Origin: Lutjanus erythropterus
Taxonomy: Eukaryota; Chordata; Actinopteri; Lutjaniformes; Lutjanidae
Direction: 5' to 3'
NCBI GenBank assembly: GCA_020091685.1
Contig: CM034613.1
Coordinates: forward strand, 8,727,474 to 8,791,473
Length of the DNA stretch: 64,000 nucleotides
Under the pieces are notes generated by a model. It saw only the letters and a program-made list of their open reading frames with translations, ran no database searches and was not told where the DNA came from. Shown here in pieces: positions 5,456-59,074 of the stretch. The stretch's first letter is position 1; each line of letters starts with the position of its first letter. The position numbers were made by a program, and so were the translations under genes.

Positions 5456-5779
5456 TGTTAAGCGTGCACTCTAGACTTTGGCTTCATAGAACGTGTTGCC
5501 AAAAGTCAAATAAACATCAAATAAAATCACAGATTCTCCTACATTTTTTCAAGAAGATGACAGAAAAATTAACAGCAGCACAAATAAAACGTAATACACA
5601 TATTATTCCACACAGTCACACCTTTGTAGGAGAGGTGATACTTTTATATTCAGTGACATGTTAGATTTTCTTCTCTTTGGTAAGCTCATCATGAGGCAGT
5701 GTGCAGCAGCTGTTTCGCCGCAGGGAACTGTTGAAATTAAATAAACTGGTTCATTTTTATGTCCTTTGTTTACATCCAG

Positions 5780-5914
5780 TTGGTGCAGGTGATCATAAAC
5801 ACCACGCACCTGGAGCAGAGCTGCCACTTTCTGGAGGAGTTCATATCAAACATCACAAATGTTCCACCTGACACAGTAAACGCTACCAAGCTGTACGGGA
5901 CCTCAACTTTCAAG
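5780..5914 (+). CDS. exoc6b: Sec15 exon (LVQVII...GTSTFK)
   Basis: Exactly 45 codons in phase 0 to phase 0, with acceptor CATCCAG and donor GTACAC. The peptide LVQVIINTTHLEQSCHFLEE, then ITNVPPDTV and TKLYGTSTFK, follows the order of mammalian Sec15 with only conservative changes. This part forms helices of the C-terminal domain. It joins directly in frame to the previous exon's GLAE and to the next exon's DARHAAEAE. No irregularities are seen. Confidence 0.95.
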
Positions 5915-6238
5915 GTACACCCAAGAAACTCCTTCTCTTCTTCTGTCCTTTCTATATTTTCTTTTTTCCCCGTATTAGTTTCTCTTTCCTTTCTCCTAAT
6001 TTTTTTGCCCTCACATTTTTCTGTCTTTTTTTTATCCTGGCATGTAAAACAAACACCCCACACACCTTTTTTTGTGATTTGTTTTGTTTTACACTTACAC
6101 CTTCCTTTATTTCTTCTTTCATTTGTTCTTCTCTCATATCATTAACACTAGTAAAACCCAGGTAAAGCAATGAATATGACAGATACATACAATGATTAAT
6201 AAAAAAAAAAACACAAACTGATTTCTGTCCTCTTGCAG
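5915..6238 (+). other. Short intron, 324 bp
   Basis: Pyrimidine-rich on the + strand (CTTCTCTTCTTCTG...), with an A-run at 6200-6212 and TCTTGCAG acceptor. It is the smallest intron in the window, and nothing else is seen. Confidence 0.9.
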
Positions 6239-6427
6239 GACGCTCGTCACGCAGCCGAGGCGGAGATCTACACCAGCTTGAACGCCAAAATCGACCAGTT
6301 CCTGCAGCTGGCTGACTACGATTGGATGGCCGGGGTCCAGGGAGGAGGGACCCTGGACCCAAGCGACTACCTGATTGACCTGATTGCTTTTCTGAAGAGC
6401 ACCTTCAGTGTCTTCACCAACCTGCCT
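6239..6427 (+). CDS. exoc6b: Sec15 exon (DARHAAEAE...FTNLP)
   Basis: Sixty-three codons, phase 0 to phase 0. It includes the invariant IDQFLQLADYDWM motif and a SDYLIDLIAFLKSTFSVF segment that resembles EXOC6B more than EXOC6 as I remember them. Between them is a loop, AGVQGGGTLDP, which appears a few residues longer than the mammalian EXOC6B loop. The acceptor is TCTTGCAG. The donor is GTTAGT, followed ten bases later by a CA repeat. The exon joins in frame to GKVAQTACMS of the next exon, 13.3 kb away. Confidence 0.95.
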
Positions 6428-6436
6428 GTTAGTACT

Positions 6437-6440
6437 CACA

Positions 6441-6474
<34 letters not shown>
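6437..6474 (+). repeat. (CA)n next to the 5' splice site
   Basis: CACACACACATACACAC...CACA begins 10 bp inside the intron. Intronic CA repeats near donors are known hnRNP L sites; an effect on this exon is inference. Confidence 0.85.
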
Positions 6475-19115: not shown

Positions 19116-19744
19116 ATTTCTTTGAAAATATGAACAATCCACACTAGTCTAAAACAAAGAAGACACACCAGCTTGTCTCTATTAAGCATAAAAATGTATT
19201 CACTTTCCCAGCTCATTAAATTGCCTTCCCTCTCAACTTTTCTTTTCTTGGACATGTAGCTTGGCTGTGTATCAACGTCACCAACTACAAACGGCTGGAA
19301 ACAACTATGTAATATTGAGACGGTACCTAGTGTGTACTGACATACTGCACAGCAAGACGCCTTCAGTGCACAATCAGAACAAAGTTAGGATGTCTTCTGG
19401 GACAAGGAATTTATGAACACTGTGCTTTCAGAAAGCAGCATTGATTTGAATTATTTTGTGCAAAATTTTATTCTTTGCAAGGTCTTGCAGGCCAGAGTTT
19501 GATACATGTGGTCTAAACAGTCAAACTATCTGTAAAGAACTTTATATTCCTGGTTTGAACGAAGAGAAGAAGAAGAGGTGTGCAGCTTGCAAGGAAATGG
19601 AAAAGAGAGTCGTAATGAAACAGTGTCTTTCAGGAAGAAGCCCCATATCCACTGGTTAATGGTCACAGATAAACAACATACAGAGACCTCACACTCTTTC
19701 TGTCTCTCTTCCCTTCTCTTTGTGTCTCTTTGTCTCTTTCTCAG

Positions 19745-19886
19745 GGCAAAGTGGCGCAGACAGCCTGCATGTCAGCCTGTAAACACATCTCCACCTCCCT
19801 GATGCAGCTCCTGCTCGACCCGGAGGTCAGACAGATCTCCATGGGAGCTCTGCACCAGCTCCACACCGACATCAAGGAGTGCGAGA
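19745..19886 (+). CDS. exoc6b: Sec15 exon (GKVAQTACMS...DIKECE)
   Basis: Forty-seven codons plus one base (phase 0 to phase 1), with acceptor TTTCTCAG and donor GTGAGT. The near-invariant GKVAQTACMSACKH is followed by STSLMQLLLDPEVRQISMGAL and HQLHTDIKECE. In mammalian Sec15 proteins the corresponding stretch reads QQFNLDV, and its Asn is, as I recall, the residue needed for Rab11 binding in rat Sec15. Here the aligned codon at 19862-19864 is CAC (His). The split codon A|GT encodes Ser with the next exon. Confidence 0.95.
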
Positions 19887-20379
19887 GTGAGTGTCGACAT
19901 TTAGTTTTTAAATTAACATGCTTGCCTTTTGCTTTTATTCCCTCCCTTTGTCCTTATTGTCATACCCATCAGTGTTACATTTACTGAATCTTCACCATTT
20001 TCCCTCGTCCTTGAGTTCCTCTTTCACTTCTTCCTCCCTCCCTCCCTCAGTTCTTCTTTTATCTTCATTGTCTCAATTCAGCCCCATACCTTCAAATTTT
20101 TTTTTTTTTTTATTGTTGCACAAGGTCAAGGGATTACATACACACACAGGGATATGATGTCTTTGTTTATTTCCTTCTTTTGTCCTATTTTGATCCTATC
20201 CCTCTTTACTTCTTTAATTTGTCCACTTCTCCTTACTTTCCTCACATATTTTTGCCTAAGCTTCAGCTTTTCCGAACACACACTCTCACACATTTATACT
20301 CCCAAAAATGTTGCTGGAAAGTCACAAATGAAAAGTGCCTGAATTACATAGCTCCTCAAGTATATTTGAACATATGGAG

Positions 20380-25790: not shown

Positions 25791-25864
25791 GTTTTGCCAG
25801 AGCCGGCCCGGTCGCAGGCTTCCAGGGTGACACGTTGCTTCTGGCCTTCAGTGACTTGAGACAA
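25791..25864 (+). CDS. exoc6b: Sec15 exon (FARAGPVAGFQ...FSDLRQ)
   Basis: Two bases completing the split Ser codon plus 24 codons (phase 1 to phase 0). It encodes FARAGPVAGFQGDTLLLAF then SDLRQ, matching the short linker between helices in Sec15 that reads ...PVPGFQ.DTLQLAFIDLRQ in mammals. The acceptor is TTTCCCACAG, with a G-run upstream in place of a long pyrimidine tract. The donor is GTAGGT. This is the smallest standard exon in the window. It lies between a 5.9-kb and a 30-kb intron, where recognition may rely on flanking signals. Confidence 0.93.
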
Positions 25865-55883: not shown

Positions 55884-55996
55884 TTACTGGACCTGTTCAC
55901 GCAGTGGGATTGGTCGACCTACCTGGCTGACTATGGCAAACCCACCTGCAAATACCTGAGAGTTAACCCGCACACTGCACTGGCCCTGCTGGAGAA
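55884..55996 (+). CDS. exoc6b: Sec15 exon (LLDLFTQWDW...TALALLE)
   Basis: Thirty-seven codons plus two bases (phase 0 to phase 2), with acceptor TTCCTCTAG and donor GTGAGC. It encodes LLDLFTQWDWSTYLADYG then KYLRVNPHTALALLE, the most conserved block of Sec15 proteins. The final AA joins the first G of either the candidate microexon or the terminal exon, so the Lys codon is kept in both cases. It is isolated from the previous exon by 30 kb. Codons are intact and match the family length. Confidence 0.96.
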
Positions 55997-56109
55997 GTGA
56001 GCAATCCTTCATTCATCCTCACAAATACTGTTTTCATACTCTGTCCTCATTCTGACTCATCTCTCCTTCTGTTCCCTGATTCGTCATTACCTTCTCTTAA
56101 TCCATCCAT

Positions 56110-56290
56110 TTAGTGCTGAAACAGTTAATTGGCTCTTTAACCAACAGGATATTTGACAATTGATTAAAATTGACAAAAATTCTCTGGTTGCAACATCTCA
56201 GATTTGAGGAATTTGCTGCTTTTCTCTGTTTTATATCTTCATGAAGTGAATATCTTTTAAGTTTTGGACAGTTGTTCACACAAAGCAAGG
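56110..56290 (+). mobile_element. Partial MITE, left part (TAGTGCTGAAACAGTTAATTGG)
   Basis: Contains AAAAATTCTCTGGTTGCAACATCTCAGATTTGAGGAATTTGCTGC and GAAGTGAATATCTTTTAAGTTTTGGACAG; same family as 44085-44320. Confidence 0.6.
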
Positions 56291-56389
56291 ATATAAAAAT
56301 AAATTGTTATGTATATTTATAGATAAGGCAAGGTGAGGGAATTTTATCAATATCTTATATTTCAATATAGATAAACTGTGCTTAACTTC

Positions 56390-57190
56390 AACGGATTAGG
56401 TCAACATTTTGCTTATTAGCTTTCTGTCTGAGAGTTAAATGACAAAATTGATATCACTGCCGCGTCTGCATCAAGTTAGAGCCAGAACGTGGTATTAGCT
56501 TAGCTGAGCATAAAGACTGTAAACCAGAGGAAATAACTCGATGGCTCTGTCCATTTGTTGCTGTCAAAAAGTTGTCTAAACTTCCCTTATAAAAACATTG
56601 TATCTTGTGTGTTTAACCAGCACATAAACAAAGAAATGGGAAGAAGAAATATTTTTTTGAGGAACTATAGGCTGTAACTGTTTCTTCACAAAGAAGAAGT
56701 CTTGCTGTTACAATGAGGCGCTCCTGTTGTGTAAAATGGCCAAAACGTAGTCCATCCATAGATCCATAGTGCCAATTAGTCTGCTTTCTGCTGGCTTCAC
56801 ACTTCACTGGGGTGTTTCTGATTCCAGACTGGTCTGAACAGATTATCTGCACAAATGATCCTGTAGTGTGTTTGGGTTACACACAAATCAAACATGTTTG
56901 ACAATTACAACTTTAAATCCTGTAGTGTGAAAGAAACAGAGACGGAATATTGAGCTGAAACCCACAATAGGCAATAAGCATGCCATAATCTGTTTTTTTT
57001 TTTTTTTAACCGGGTAAGATTTAAATATCCTCTCGTGCGCACCAGCCTTTATGCTAAGCTAAGCTAACTACCTGCTGACTCCAGTGTCACACCTAACACA
57101 CAACCGTGAGATCAAAATTTATCTTTCCAACTCTTTGCTGGAAAGGACGCAAATAAGTGGATGTCCCAAATTGTTGAGCTATTCCTTTAA
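56390..57190 (+). mobile_element. MITE-like element with GGAATAGCTCAACA-type ends
   Basis: Left end ACGGATTAGGTCAACATTTTG and right end CAAATTGTTGAGCTATTCCTTTAA are inverted relatives. Internal GCTTAGCTGAGCATAAAGACTG and TTTATGCTAAGCTAAGCTAAC are also inverted copies, typical of a fish MITE. It ends ~125 bp before the candidate microexon. Confidence 0.7.
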
Positions 57191-57316
57191 TGTAAATAAA
57201 CACATACATCTGTTATTTGCTTTAAAGCACTAGATAACTTTTTCAAACTGCATCCATCTCTTCTTCTGTCTCAACTTCTCTTCTGTCCGTCTGTCCTCTC
57301 TGTCATGTTTTGACAG

Positions 57317-57328
57317 GTTATTTAAGCC
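57317..57328 (+). CDS. exoc6b: Candidate 12-nt microexon (adds Leu-Phe-Lys-Pro)
   Basis: GTTATTTAAGCC lies between a TTTTGACAG acceptor, backed by ~60 bases of pyrimidine-rich sequence, and a consensus GTGAGT donor. Joined to the upstream exon (ending AA) and the downstream exon (starting G ATG), it reads AAG-TTA-TTT-AAG-CCG-ATG. It therefore inserts LFKP between Lys and Met and keeps the frame; skipping it also keeps the frame. Twelve bases is typical of neural microexons, and several CUCUCU/UCUU motifs upstream would suit PTB repression. No transcript evidence is available. Chance occurrence of a good splice-site pair in a 2.9-kb intron cannot be excluded. Confidence 0.5.
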
Positions 57329-57708
57329 GTGAGTACTCAGTGTTATGTGTGTGAGTGATGTTGGATATGCATGTAAAGAGACAACTAAAGTGTGTGTATA
57401 CAAGCAAGTATTAGGTTAATGTGTGTGTGAATAATGCAACTTCAGAGAATAACATGGTTTGACGTGCACACGTCCTCATCACAACAGAAAGAATAAACTT
57501 GTGTCATAACTACACTGATGTTTATTGTTGTGGCCGTTGAACAACACCCACACCATGTATCTGTGTACCATCAGTTTATCAGTGTAGAGCCTTTGATGCT
57601 GTGCAGATACACATACACATACACAACCCGCACTCACACAGAATGTCCTCATCTGAGATTTTGGTTTCTTCCTGAGAAAGTTCAAGTACCAGTTTTCTTC
57701 AGGCAAGA

Positions 57709-57716
57709 CACATACA

Positions 57717-57761
<45 letters not shown>
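57709..57761 (+). repeat. (CA)n microsatellite
   Basis: CA run with two TA interruptions near its start. Confidence 0.95.
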
Positions 57762-57763
<2 letters not shown>

Positions 57764-58200
57764 TCGTATGATCCAATCCATTGTTTGGTCTGGTCCAGTC
57801 GACCTTCCCTAATCAGGGTCAGCATTTACTCTCCAGAGCTCCACAGGGCCCAGGCCCGGTGGTCCCTCTGTGCCCAGGGGGAAGCACCCTGCTGGGGCTT
57901 GTCTGGTCTGCTGGACCCCTGAACTTCCTGGAGGTCCATAACAGTCCAGTGTTCTGCAACCAAACCCACACTGAGACACGCTGTCTCATGTGACACTGAG
58001 CACACACATACAAAACCTTAAAGCCGAAACATCATTTTCTTCTCTAACAGGTGACTTTAACAGAGATCTGTGTGTCTGCTCTGTACTGAGTATGCTCGTA
58101 CAATCATGCACGTGTGTTTTCCTGAATGCATCAGATAAACTACTGAGTATTTTTGTACTTACAGCATTTGAATACCGAGAATTTAAAAATAAACATGATG

Positions 58201-58806
58201 ACACTTATTATAATATTAAGGTAACTGTAATAAGCTTTAGTTAATAGGTAATAAGGCTCTTATAGGATGCTTATTTCATCAGTATTGTTAATAAGTGTTA
58301 ATAATGGCATCATAAACACACTGCGTTTAACCAGTTTACCTTTAATGTTTTTGTTAAACCTTTACTAAACGCTTGTTGTTTTATTGAGATTTCTCCATAA
58401 ATTATTTTACACTTAAGTACAGTTAACTCTACTTTTTGGGATTTTTAGGCTTTTTAAGGTTAATAACTCTTTTATAATGCATTTATGCTTCTCTCTTACT
58501 TCCCTCTTACTTTCTTAACTGTTAATAACCACATAATAAAGGATTCATTAACCTGAATAAGCATTAAGCTCTGGTATCCTAAAAAAGTTAAGAAAGTTAT
58601 ATTTGGTAAATATGTTTTTAATACTCTTATAAACTATTCTAAGAAACAAAGTTTAAAAATTATTAGTGCTAATAAGTTTCTCATAATACAATAACAATAA
58701 TAAACGTGTATACAGTCTTAACACATATTAATGTTAATAGCCATCTTATGAGTACTGTATTATCTATTAAATAAAGCTTATTACAAGCACATTAATATAA
58801 AGTGTT
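58201..58806 (+). mobile_element. Long-TIR MITE-like element
   Basis: The left arm ACACTTATTATAATATTAAGG..GTAATAAGCTTTAGTTAATAGGTAATA is matched by the inverse of the right arm (58740-58806): ACACTTTATATTAATG..GTAATAAGCTTTATTTAATAGATAATA. The inverted repeats are ~65 bp or longer. The interior is rich in TAATAAG words. Confidence 0.75.
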
Positions 58807-58947
58807 ACCAATGTAAAATACTAAAACAGATAATTAACCTCATTTAATTTCTGCTCATTTTTTCTCTTAATTTCTTTTCTCCCTCATCCTATATGTTTCT
58901 TTCACCTCCTCTTTTTCCATCTGTTCCTTCTTACTCTCCGTATCCAG

Positions 58948-59074
58948 GATGAGGGAGACGAGCCGGAAGAACAACATGTTCGCCCAGTTCAGGAAGACGG
59001 ACAGAGACAGACAGAAGCTCATCGACACCGTCATCAAACAGCTACGCAACCTCATTGCTCAGCACCACACCTAG
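58948..59074 (+). CDS. exoc6b: Sec15 terminal coding exon (MRETSRKNN...IAQHHT stop)
   Basis: The first G completes the Lys codon; 41 codons and a TAG stop (59072-59074) follow. It encodes MRETSRKNNMFAQFRKTDRD then RQKLIDTVIKQLRNLIAQHHT, the basic, helical C-terminus of Sec15. NNMFAQFRK and the short ...HHT end favour EXOC6B over EXOC6, whose mammalian C-terminus as I remember ends in a Gly-Met-Ser type sequence. The acceptor is TATCCAG. The stop position gives the usual family C-terminal length, with no truncation. Confidence 0.96.

Follow-up and report, generated by a model that had tools for sequence, protein, structure and literature searches.

Exons of a Sec15 gene lie on the forward strand of the window, by which we mean the whole 64-kb stretch of DNA that was analysed (C23:8727474-8791473). 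The genome searched, presumably that of a teleost, comprises 938 Mb in 444 contigs. A query of 257 residues, spliced from the exons of the window, matches the Pfam family Sec15_C with an E value of 4e-62, and exon FARAGPVAGFQGDTLLLAFSDLRQ is part of the query that matches. When the genome was searched with Sec15_C and the C-terminal exons as queries, only C23 and the minus strand of C20 gave matches among the best candidates scored. We take these two genes to be exoc6b (C23) and exoc6 (C20). The naming relies on the human proteins, with the protein of the last exon, MRETSRKNNMFAQFRKTDRDRQKLIDTVIKQLRNLIAQHHT, presumably more like human EXOC6B than EXOC6. The last intron of exoc6b (55997-58947) has 2951 nt and is of phase 2. 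An apparent intron of about 30 kb (25865-55883), many times the length of the last, precedes the penultimate exon. The features are collected in the table.

Table. Features of exoc6b in the window and of its paralogue exoc6 (positions are those of the window unless a contig or locus is named; slashes mark exon boundaries)
Feature	Position	Strand	Remarks
exoc6b exon region, Sec15_C 133-182	5774-5920 (C23:8733247-8733393)	+	match limits; E 9.2e-4, 27 bits, below cut-off
exoc6b exon region, Sec15_C 176-255	6224-6469 (C23:8733697-8733942)	+	match limits
exoc6b exon region, Sec15_C 223-294	19682-19903 (C23:8747155-8747376)	+	match limits, not exon limits
exoc6b exon FARAGPVAGFQGDTLLLAFSDLRQ	25791-25864	+	from ORF list and bases; limits judged by eye
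exoc6b penultimate coding exon LLDLFTQWDWSTYLADYGKPTCKYLRVNPHTALALLEK	55884-55996	+	113 nt; ends in phase 2, ...GAGAA/GTGAGC
exoc6b 3′ splice-site region, acceptor TTTTGACAG	57234-57316	+	83-nt AG exclusion zone; rich in UCUU/CUUCUC/CUCUCU, PTBP1-like
exoc6b candidate 12-nt microexon GTTATTTAAGCC	57317-57328	+	bases read directly
exoc6b candidate donor GTGAGT	57329-57334	+	exon side GCC; moderate overall
UGCAUG, RBFOX-type	57368-57373	+	+40 from the donor; sole copy in the 2951-nt intron
ACUAAA, with QKI core ACUAA	57384-57389	+	+56 from the donor
exoc6b last coding segment (G)MRETSRKNNMFAQFRKTDRDRQKLIDTVIKQLRNLIAQHHT	58948-59074	+	starts CAG/GATGAGG; stop TAG 59072-59074
exoc6 exon matches	C20 31267226-31267342, 31264806-31264922	minus	from the genome searches
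exoc6 candidate microexon AGTCTACAGGGG	L011 4478-4467 (C20)	minus	12 nt, phase 2, open frame, K-VYRG-M

The last intron of exoc6b contains the 12-nt candidate GTTATTTAAGCC, which is flanked by ...CCTCTCTGTCATGTTTTGACAG on the 5′ side and by GTGAGTACT on the 3′ side. Inclusion gives E-K-LFKP-M-R and skipping gives E-K-M-R, so that the frame is kept both ways, and the inclusion junctions would read AA/GTTATTTAAGCC/GATGAGG. In length (within 3-27 nt and a multiple of 3), in the lack of a stop codon and in its AG and GT flanks, the candidate has the sequence characters of a microexon. The preliminary description had proposed that a Sec15 gene holds an in-frame microexon of 12 nt, within a phase-2 intron and with K-LFKP-M and K-M both in frame. 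The bases and the exon limits bear this out; the gene is exoc6b, and exoc6 holds a homologous candidate, described below. Splice sites were scored with frequency tables. The acceptor, which had been called good, is good by this measure also, its score of 5.86 being comparable to those of the two neighbouring real acceptors (5.20 and 6.63). AG exclusion zones of at least 83 nt precede 5 of the 148 AGs in this intron and 0.96% of 10146 AGs at random loci. The donor had been described as consensus. This holds for its intron side, GTGAGT, but not for its exon side, where GCC is poor. The CC at the end of the exon brings the overall donor score down to a modest 0.92; the donor of the upstream exon scores 2.85, and 272 of the 4103 GTs on the plus strand of the window reach at least 0.92.

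Pairs of sites this good are found by chance. In the 64-kb window, pairs 3-27 nt apart with both sites scoring at least as high as those of the candidate number six on the plus strand, the candidate included, and two on the minus strand; when they must also be in frame, one is left on each strand, that on the plus strand being the candidate itself. Dinucleotide shuffles of the exoc6b intron gave an equally good in-frame pair in 27 cases out of 1000. Eight other 10-kb loci, taken on both strands, held six in-frame pairs in 160 kb, a rate that corresponds to about 0.11 expected in the exoc6b intron and 2.4 per 64-kb strand. By chance, each 64-kb strand should thus hold about one or two in-frame candidates of this quality, and the evidence from exoc6b alone does not decide the matter. 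Splice-site scoring was accordingly rejected as sufficient proof, since decoys score equally well. An origin from a repeat or a mobile element was also rejected. This is because the exact 19-base pattern around the exoc6b candidate has one match in the genome, and allowing up to two mismatches brings the number to 13 with the exact one counted, against 11 for a reversed control pattern. A degenerate pattern also had one exact match in viral_contigs (L001), which we took as chance; by eye, the 401 bases inspected there suggest an ordinary coding-like stretch. No relatives of the 79-residue C-terminal query were found in genome_contigs or viral_contigs.

The last intron of exoc6 (2315 nt, phase 2) is homologous to that of exoc6b, and it contains a matching candidate, AGTCTACAGGGG. 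Its context is CTGCTGCTGCTAACTGCTGCTCAG/AGTCTACAGGGG/GTAGGT, 751 nt from the donor of the intron, and the inclusion junctions would read AA/AGTCTACAGGGG/GATGAAGG. The two candidates share the intron, the insertion point, the length and the phase. The exoc6 candidate was spotted by eye rather than by the scoring scan, from which it is absent because its UGC-rich acceptor scores only -0.16, a poor value, by the ordinary matrix; its donor scores 2.70. There are seven UGC in the 60 nt upstream of its 3′ splice site. A count of at least seven occurs at 3 of 13687 AGs on both strands of the window and of four 10-kb exoc6 stretches, the exoc6 site being one of the three, and at none of the 10146 AGs at eight random loci. 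When the exoc6 intron was shuffled, an in-frame pair matching both its UGC count and its donor arose in 0 of 1000 trials. The AG exclusion zone is 127 nt long, and zones of at least this length precede 0.12% of AGs at random loci. A 25-base pattern from the exoc6 site has a single match in the genome at up to three mismatches. Of the two putative exons, the one in exoc6 is the better textbook case, given its UGC-rich 3′ splice site of the SRRM4 type. A nested 3-nt alternative, CTACAG/GGG/GTAGGT (L011 4469-4467, minus strand), uses the same donor.

At the level of DNA there is little identity between GTTATTTAAGCC and AGTCTACAGGGG, and the likeness of the flanks consists mainly of CU-rich tracts and two downstream motifs. 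The residue pattern L/V, F/Y, K/R, P/G is common to the two inserts, and LFKP against VYRG gives +4 by BLOSUM62, a value equalled by 14 of 456 decoy 12-mers against LFKP. Chance often yields candidates of equal length with similar peptides: 87 of 1000 random intron-sized pairs showed this. The paralogue also bears on whether the exoc6b site could be a recursive splice site, that is, AG/GT with no retained exon. The exoc6b exon does begin with GT directly after AG, but GTTATT is a poor donor by inspection, the exoc6 counterpart begins with AG and not GT, and neither the kept frame nor the peptide pattern would be needed at such a site; we find this reading scarcely credible.

The two introns also share downstream motifs. 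In exoc6, UGCAUG stands at +42 from the donor and is one of two copies in the intron, and the same ACUAAA hexamer found in exoc6b follows at +63. At random loci, TGCATG occurs within 60 nt downstream of 10 of 356 donor-like sites and at +38 to +44 of 1 of 356; on the plus strand of the window it lies within 60 nt of 6 of 131 such sites; ACTAAA is present in the 104 nt tested at 14 of the 356 random sites. We enumerated same-length in-frame candidates in both introns and counted a UGCAUG offset as matching when it agreed within 5 nt. Depending on the donor threshold there are 7, 70 or 533 same-length pairs, and in each set the exoc6b/exoc6 pair alone has a matching UGCAUG. Among 1000 random intron-sized pairs the UGCAUG coincidence arose 1, 16 and 123 times at donor thresholds of 0.5, -3 and none. 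In a version that also required a pyrimidine before the AG, the introns held three and two candidates with one same-length pair, and a UGCAUG match arose in 0 of 1000 random pairs. As many downstream 6-mers as the two sites share were found in common in 1.2% of 20000 random pairs; of 356 random segments, 23 had that many in common with exoc6b and 2 with exoc6. All of these rates are guides and not strict probabilities, because the motifs and thresholds were picked after the sequences had been viewed. With the paralogue considered, the signal for a candidate exon is well above chance.

We favor the reading that GTTATTTAAGCC is a genuine, regulated and alternatively spliced microexon of exoc6b, and we put its probability at about 0.88, because exoc6 has a matching candidate in the same position, accompanied by the same control signals. 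It is also likely that the two exons are of common descent. If both candidates were chance pseudo-exons, in-frame AG...GT pairs in the two introns that are never spliced in, the background rate given above, the modest exoc6b donor and the weak ordinary acceptor of exoc6 would all be accounted for. Chance would however also have to supply the same intron, length and phase and a similar peptide in both paralogues, together with the UGC-rich exoc6 acceptor and UGCAUG and ACUAAA at matching offsets in both, and we consider this very improbable. A different possibility is that the exoc6 exon is a real SRRM3/4-type microexon and the exoc6b sequence a remnant that is decaying or no longer used. The UGC-rich 3′ splice site of exoc6 is in keeping with this, as are the weaker donor of exoc6b and its lack of UGC in 60 nt. 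Yet exoc6b has kept its open frame, both splice sites, the long AG exclusion zone and the CU tract, and the only UGCAUG in the intron stands at the matching offset; we give the remnant reading little weight.

The likely place of the insert in the protein follows from the domain limits. The Sec15_C match ends exactly at the junction lysine (...LLEK), at residue 216 of 257 and at the end of the profile (348/348), and in the 83-residue query it covers residues 1-38, again to 348/348. The PDB entry 2a2f aligns with the 257-residue query (E 5e-29) only to residue 183, which is 33 residues upstream of the junction, and 5yfp gives a weak match (E 0.025). No PDB chain was found at E 0.1 with the 79- and 83-residue C-terminal queries. 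Sec15 reportedly binds Rab11 through its C-terminal domain, to go by the title of a 2005 study by Wu and colleagues. The crystallised fragment, 2a2f, is the C-terminal domain of Drosophila Sec15 (PMC2635961). The preliminary description had placed the insert immediately ahead of the final helix of the Rab-binding domain. This placement is not supported, since Sec15_C ends at the junction and the insert is beyond the crystallised fragment; by these two limits the insert would come after the helical domain and ahead of the basic C-terminal tail. It is not demonstrably inside a Rab-binding helix. In the exocyst, Sec15 is placed with Sec10 closest to the vesicle (PMC11555703).

The regulatory signals of the two candidates are partly different. 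In exoc6b there is a near downstream UGCAUG, and upstream there are CU-rich elements of the kind bound by PTBP1 (UCUU at -38, -55 and -58; CUCUCU at -21), which are the sequence characters of RBFOX/PTBP1-type exons. These motifs suggest control by RBFOX and PTBP1, and possibly by QKI. A neural programme for the candidate is plausible, and for RBFOX control in particular we would put the chances somewhat above even. Of the characters of eMIC exons, the UC-rich tract and the long AG exclusion zone are present in exoc6b (83 nt, against 127 nt in exoc6), but there are 0 UGC within 60 nt of its 3′ splice site, against 7 in exoc6, and we do not file it as a textbook SRRM4 exon because of this. The exoc6 candidate looks SRRM3/4-type. 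The exoc6b intron is UGUGUG-rich at 57329-57430, a possible CELF-type context, and there is a (CA)n tract near 57725-57761. SRRM_C domains occur at two loci of the genome, L026 (C11) and L027 (C9), presumably srrm3/srrm4-like genes, and Fox-1_C has seven matches; the trans-acting families are therefore present. We take SRRM_C to be the eMIC region of SRRM3/4.

Published work on such exons describes the same signals. TGCATG is enriched downstream of alternative micro-exons, which are under RBFOX and PTBP1 control (Li et al. 2015, PMC4317164), and neuronal microexons are described as repressed by PTBP1 and promoted by Rbfox in a review that also notes UGC near the weak 3′ splice sites of mammalian SRRM4 targets (PMC10551640). 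The eMIC-dependent exons of Drosophila are reported to combine a long AG exclusion zone with UGC close to the 3′ splice site, a UCUC tract and CUAAY (PMC8797185). For conserved zebrafish microexons, PMC12626420 reports UGC and UC elements together in 42 of 95 and typically one of them in 44 more. By that division exoc6 would fit the class with UGC and UC, and exoc6b the class with one element. QKI has the motif ACUAA, and its binding in the intron downstream of an exon is associated with inclusion (PMC9122611).

From the sequence we infer the splicing-in of both exons, the tissues in which it would occur, the factors that would direct it and the role of the insert, as follows. The exon would descend from a microexon of the still single Sec15 gene that gave rise to exoc6 and exoc6b, and its counterpart would survive in exoc6. 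Skipping would be the default, as the exon may be too short for ordinary exon definition and is preceded by a CU-rich tract to which PTBP1 can bind. Where RBFOX, and perhaps QKI, is active, proteins bound to UGCAUG (+40) and ACUAAA (+56) would help U1 to define the donor. The exoc6 copy would be governed in addition through features typical of SRRM3/SRRM4 (eMIC) exons, namely a 3′ splice site rich in UGC and a long AG exclusion zone. Inclusion would add four residues in the order aliphatic, aromatic, basic and helix breaker (LFKP, or VYRG in exoc6). Set between the Sec15_C helical domain and the basic tail, they may alter the reach of the tail or its partner binding in the exocyst. A broader and more tentative hypothesis, which we put forward at somewhat less than even chances, is that an ancestral Sec15 microexon predating the early-vertebrate duplication was kept in both copies with its length, phase, residue pattern and UGCAUG/ACUAAA block. 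The 3′ splice sites would then have diverged to UGC and eMIC control in exoc6 and to CU, RBFOX and QKI control in exoc6b, so that exocyst tail variants would be assigned to different neural cell types, for example neurons and oligodendrocytes.

If the exons are real, both Sec15 paralogues carry a switch of four residues under tissue control, kept since their divergence. The switch would also provide a precise handle on the tuning of neural or glial exocytosis, since the 12 bases could be deleted with the protein retained. Moreover, a microexon call for which splice-site scores do not suffice can be rescued by comparing paralogues of the same genome. As for earlier records, "exoc" and "exocyst" do not occur in the main text of PMC4317164, nor does "exoc" in the main texts of PMC4991804 and PMC12626420, the 95-exon list of the latter being in a supplement outside that check. 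We found no description of the 12-nt exoc6b exon in the open-access text consulted; supplementary tables, the usual place for such exons, were outside the search, and we therefore do not claim that the exon is undescribed. In mouse, an exon of Exoc6b is reported as selective for oligodendrocytes that myelinate (Ling et al. 2020, PMC6952364), and the text consulted gives neither a length nor a position by which it could be matched to the 12-nt exon. The two may be the same. In that case the exon already has a record from mouse, and the novelty lies in the pair of paralogues and the control block that they share.

The candidates resemble several known systems. Like the mouse oligodendrocyte exon (PMC6952364), the exoc6b candidate would be a cell-type-specific alternative exon in a gene of the same name, and its ACUAAA holds the QKI motif. 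Like the SRRM3/SRRM4 (eMIC) microexons (PMC8797185, PMC12626420, PMC10551640), both copies are short and in frame and have a long AG exclusion zone and a UC-rich tract. The exoc6b copy differs from those exons in lacking UGC in the 60 nt before its 3′ splice site; the exoc6 copy also shares the eMIC-type UGC-rich 3′ splice site and a CUAAC. In its sequence the exoc6b candidate is like the brain micro-exons controlled by RBFOX and PTBP1 (PMC4317164): it has 12 nt in frame, a CU-rich tract upstream and UGCAUG just downstream.
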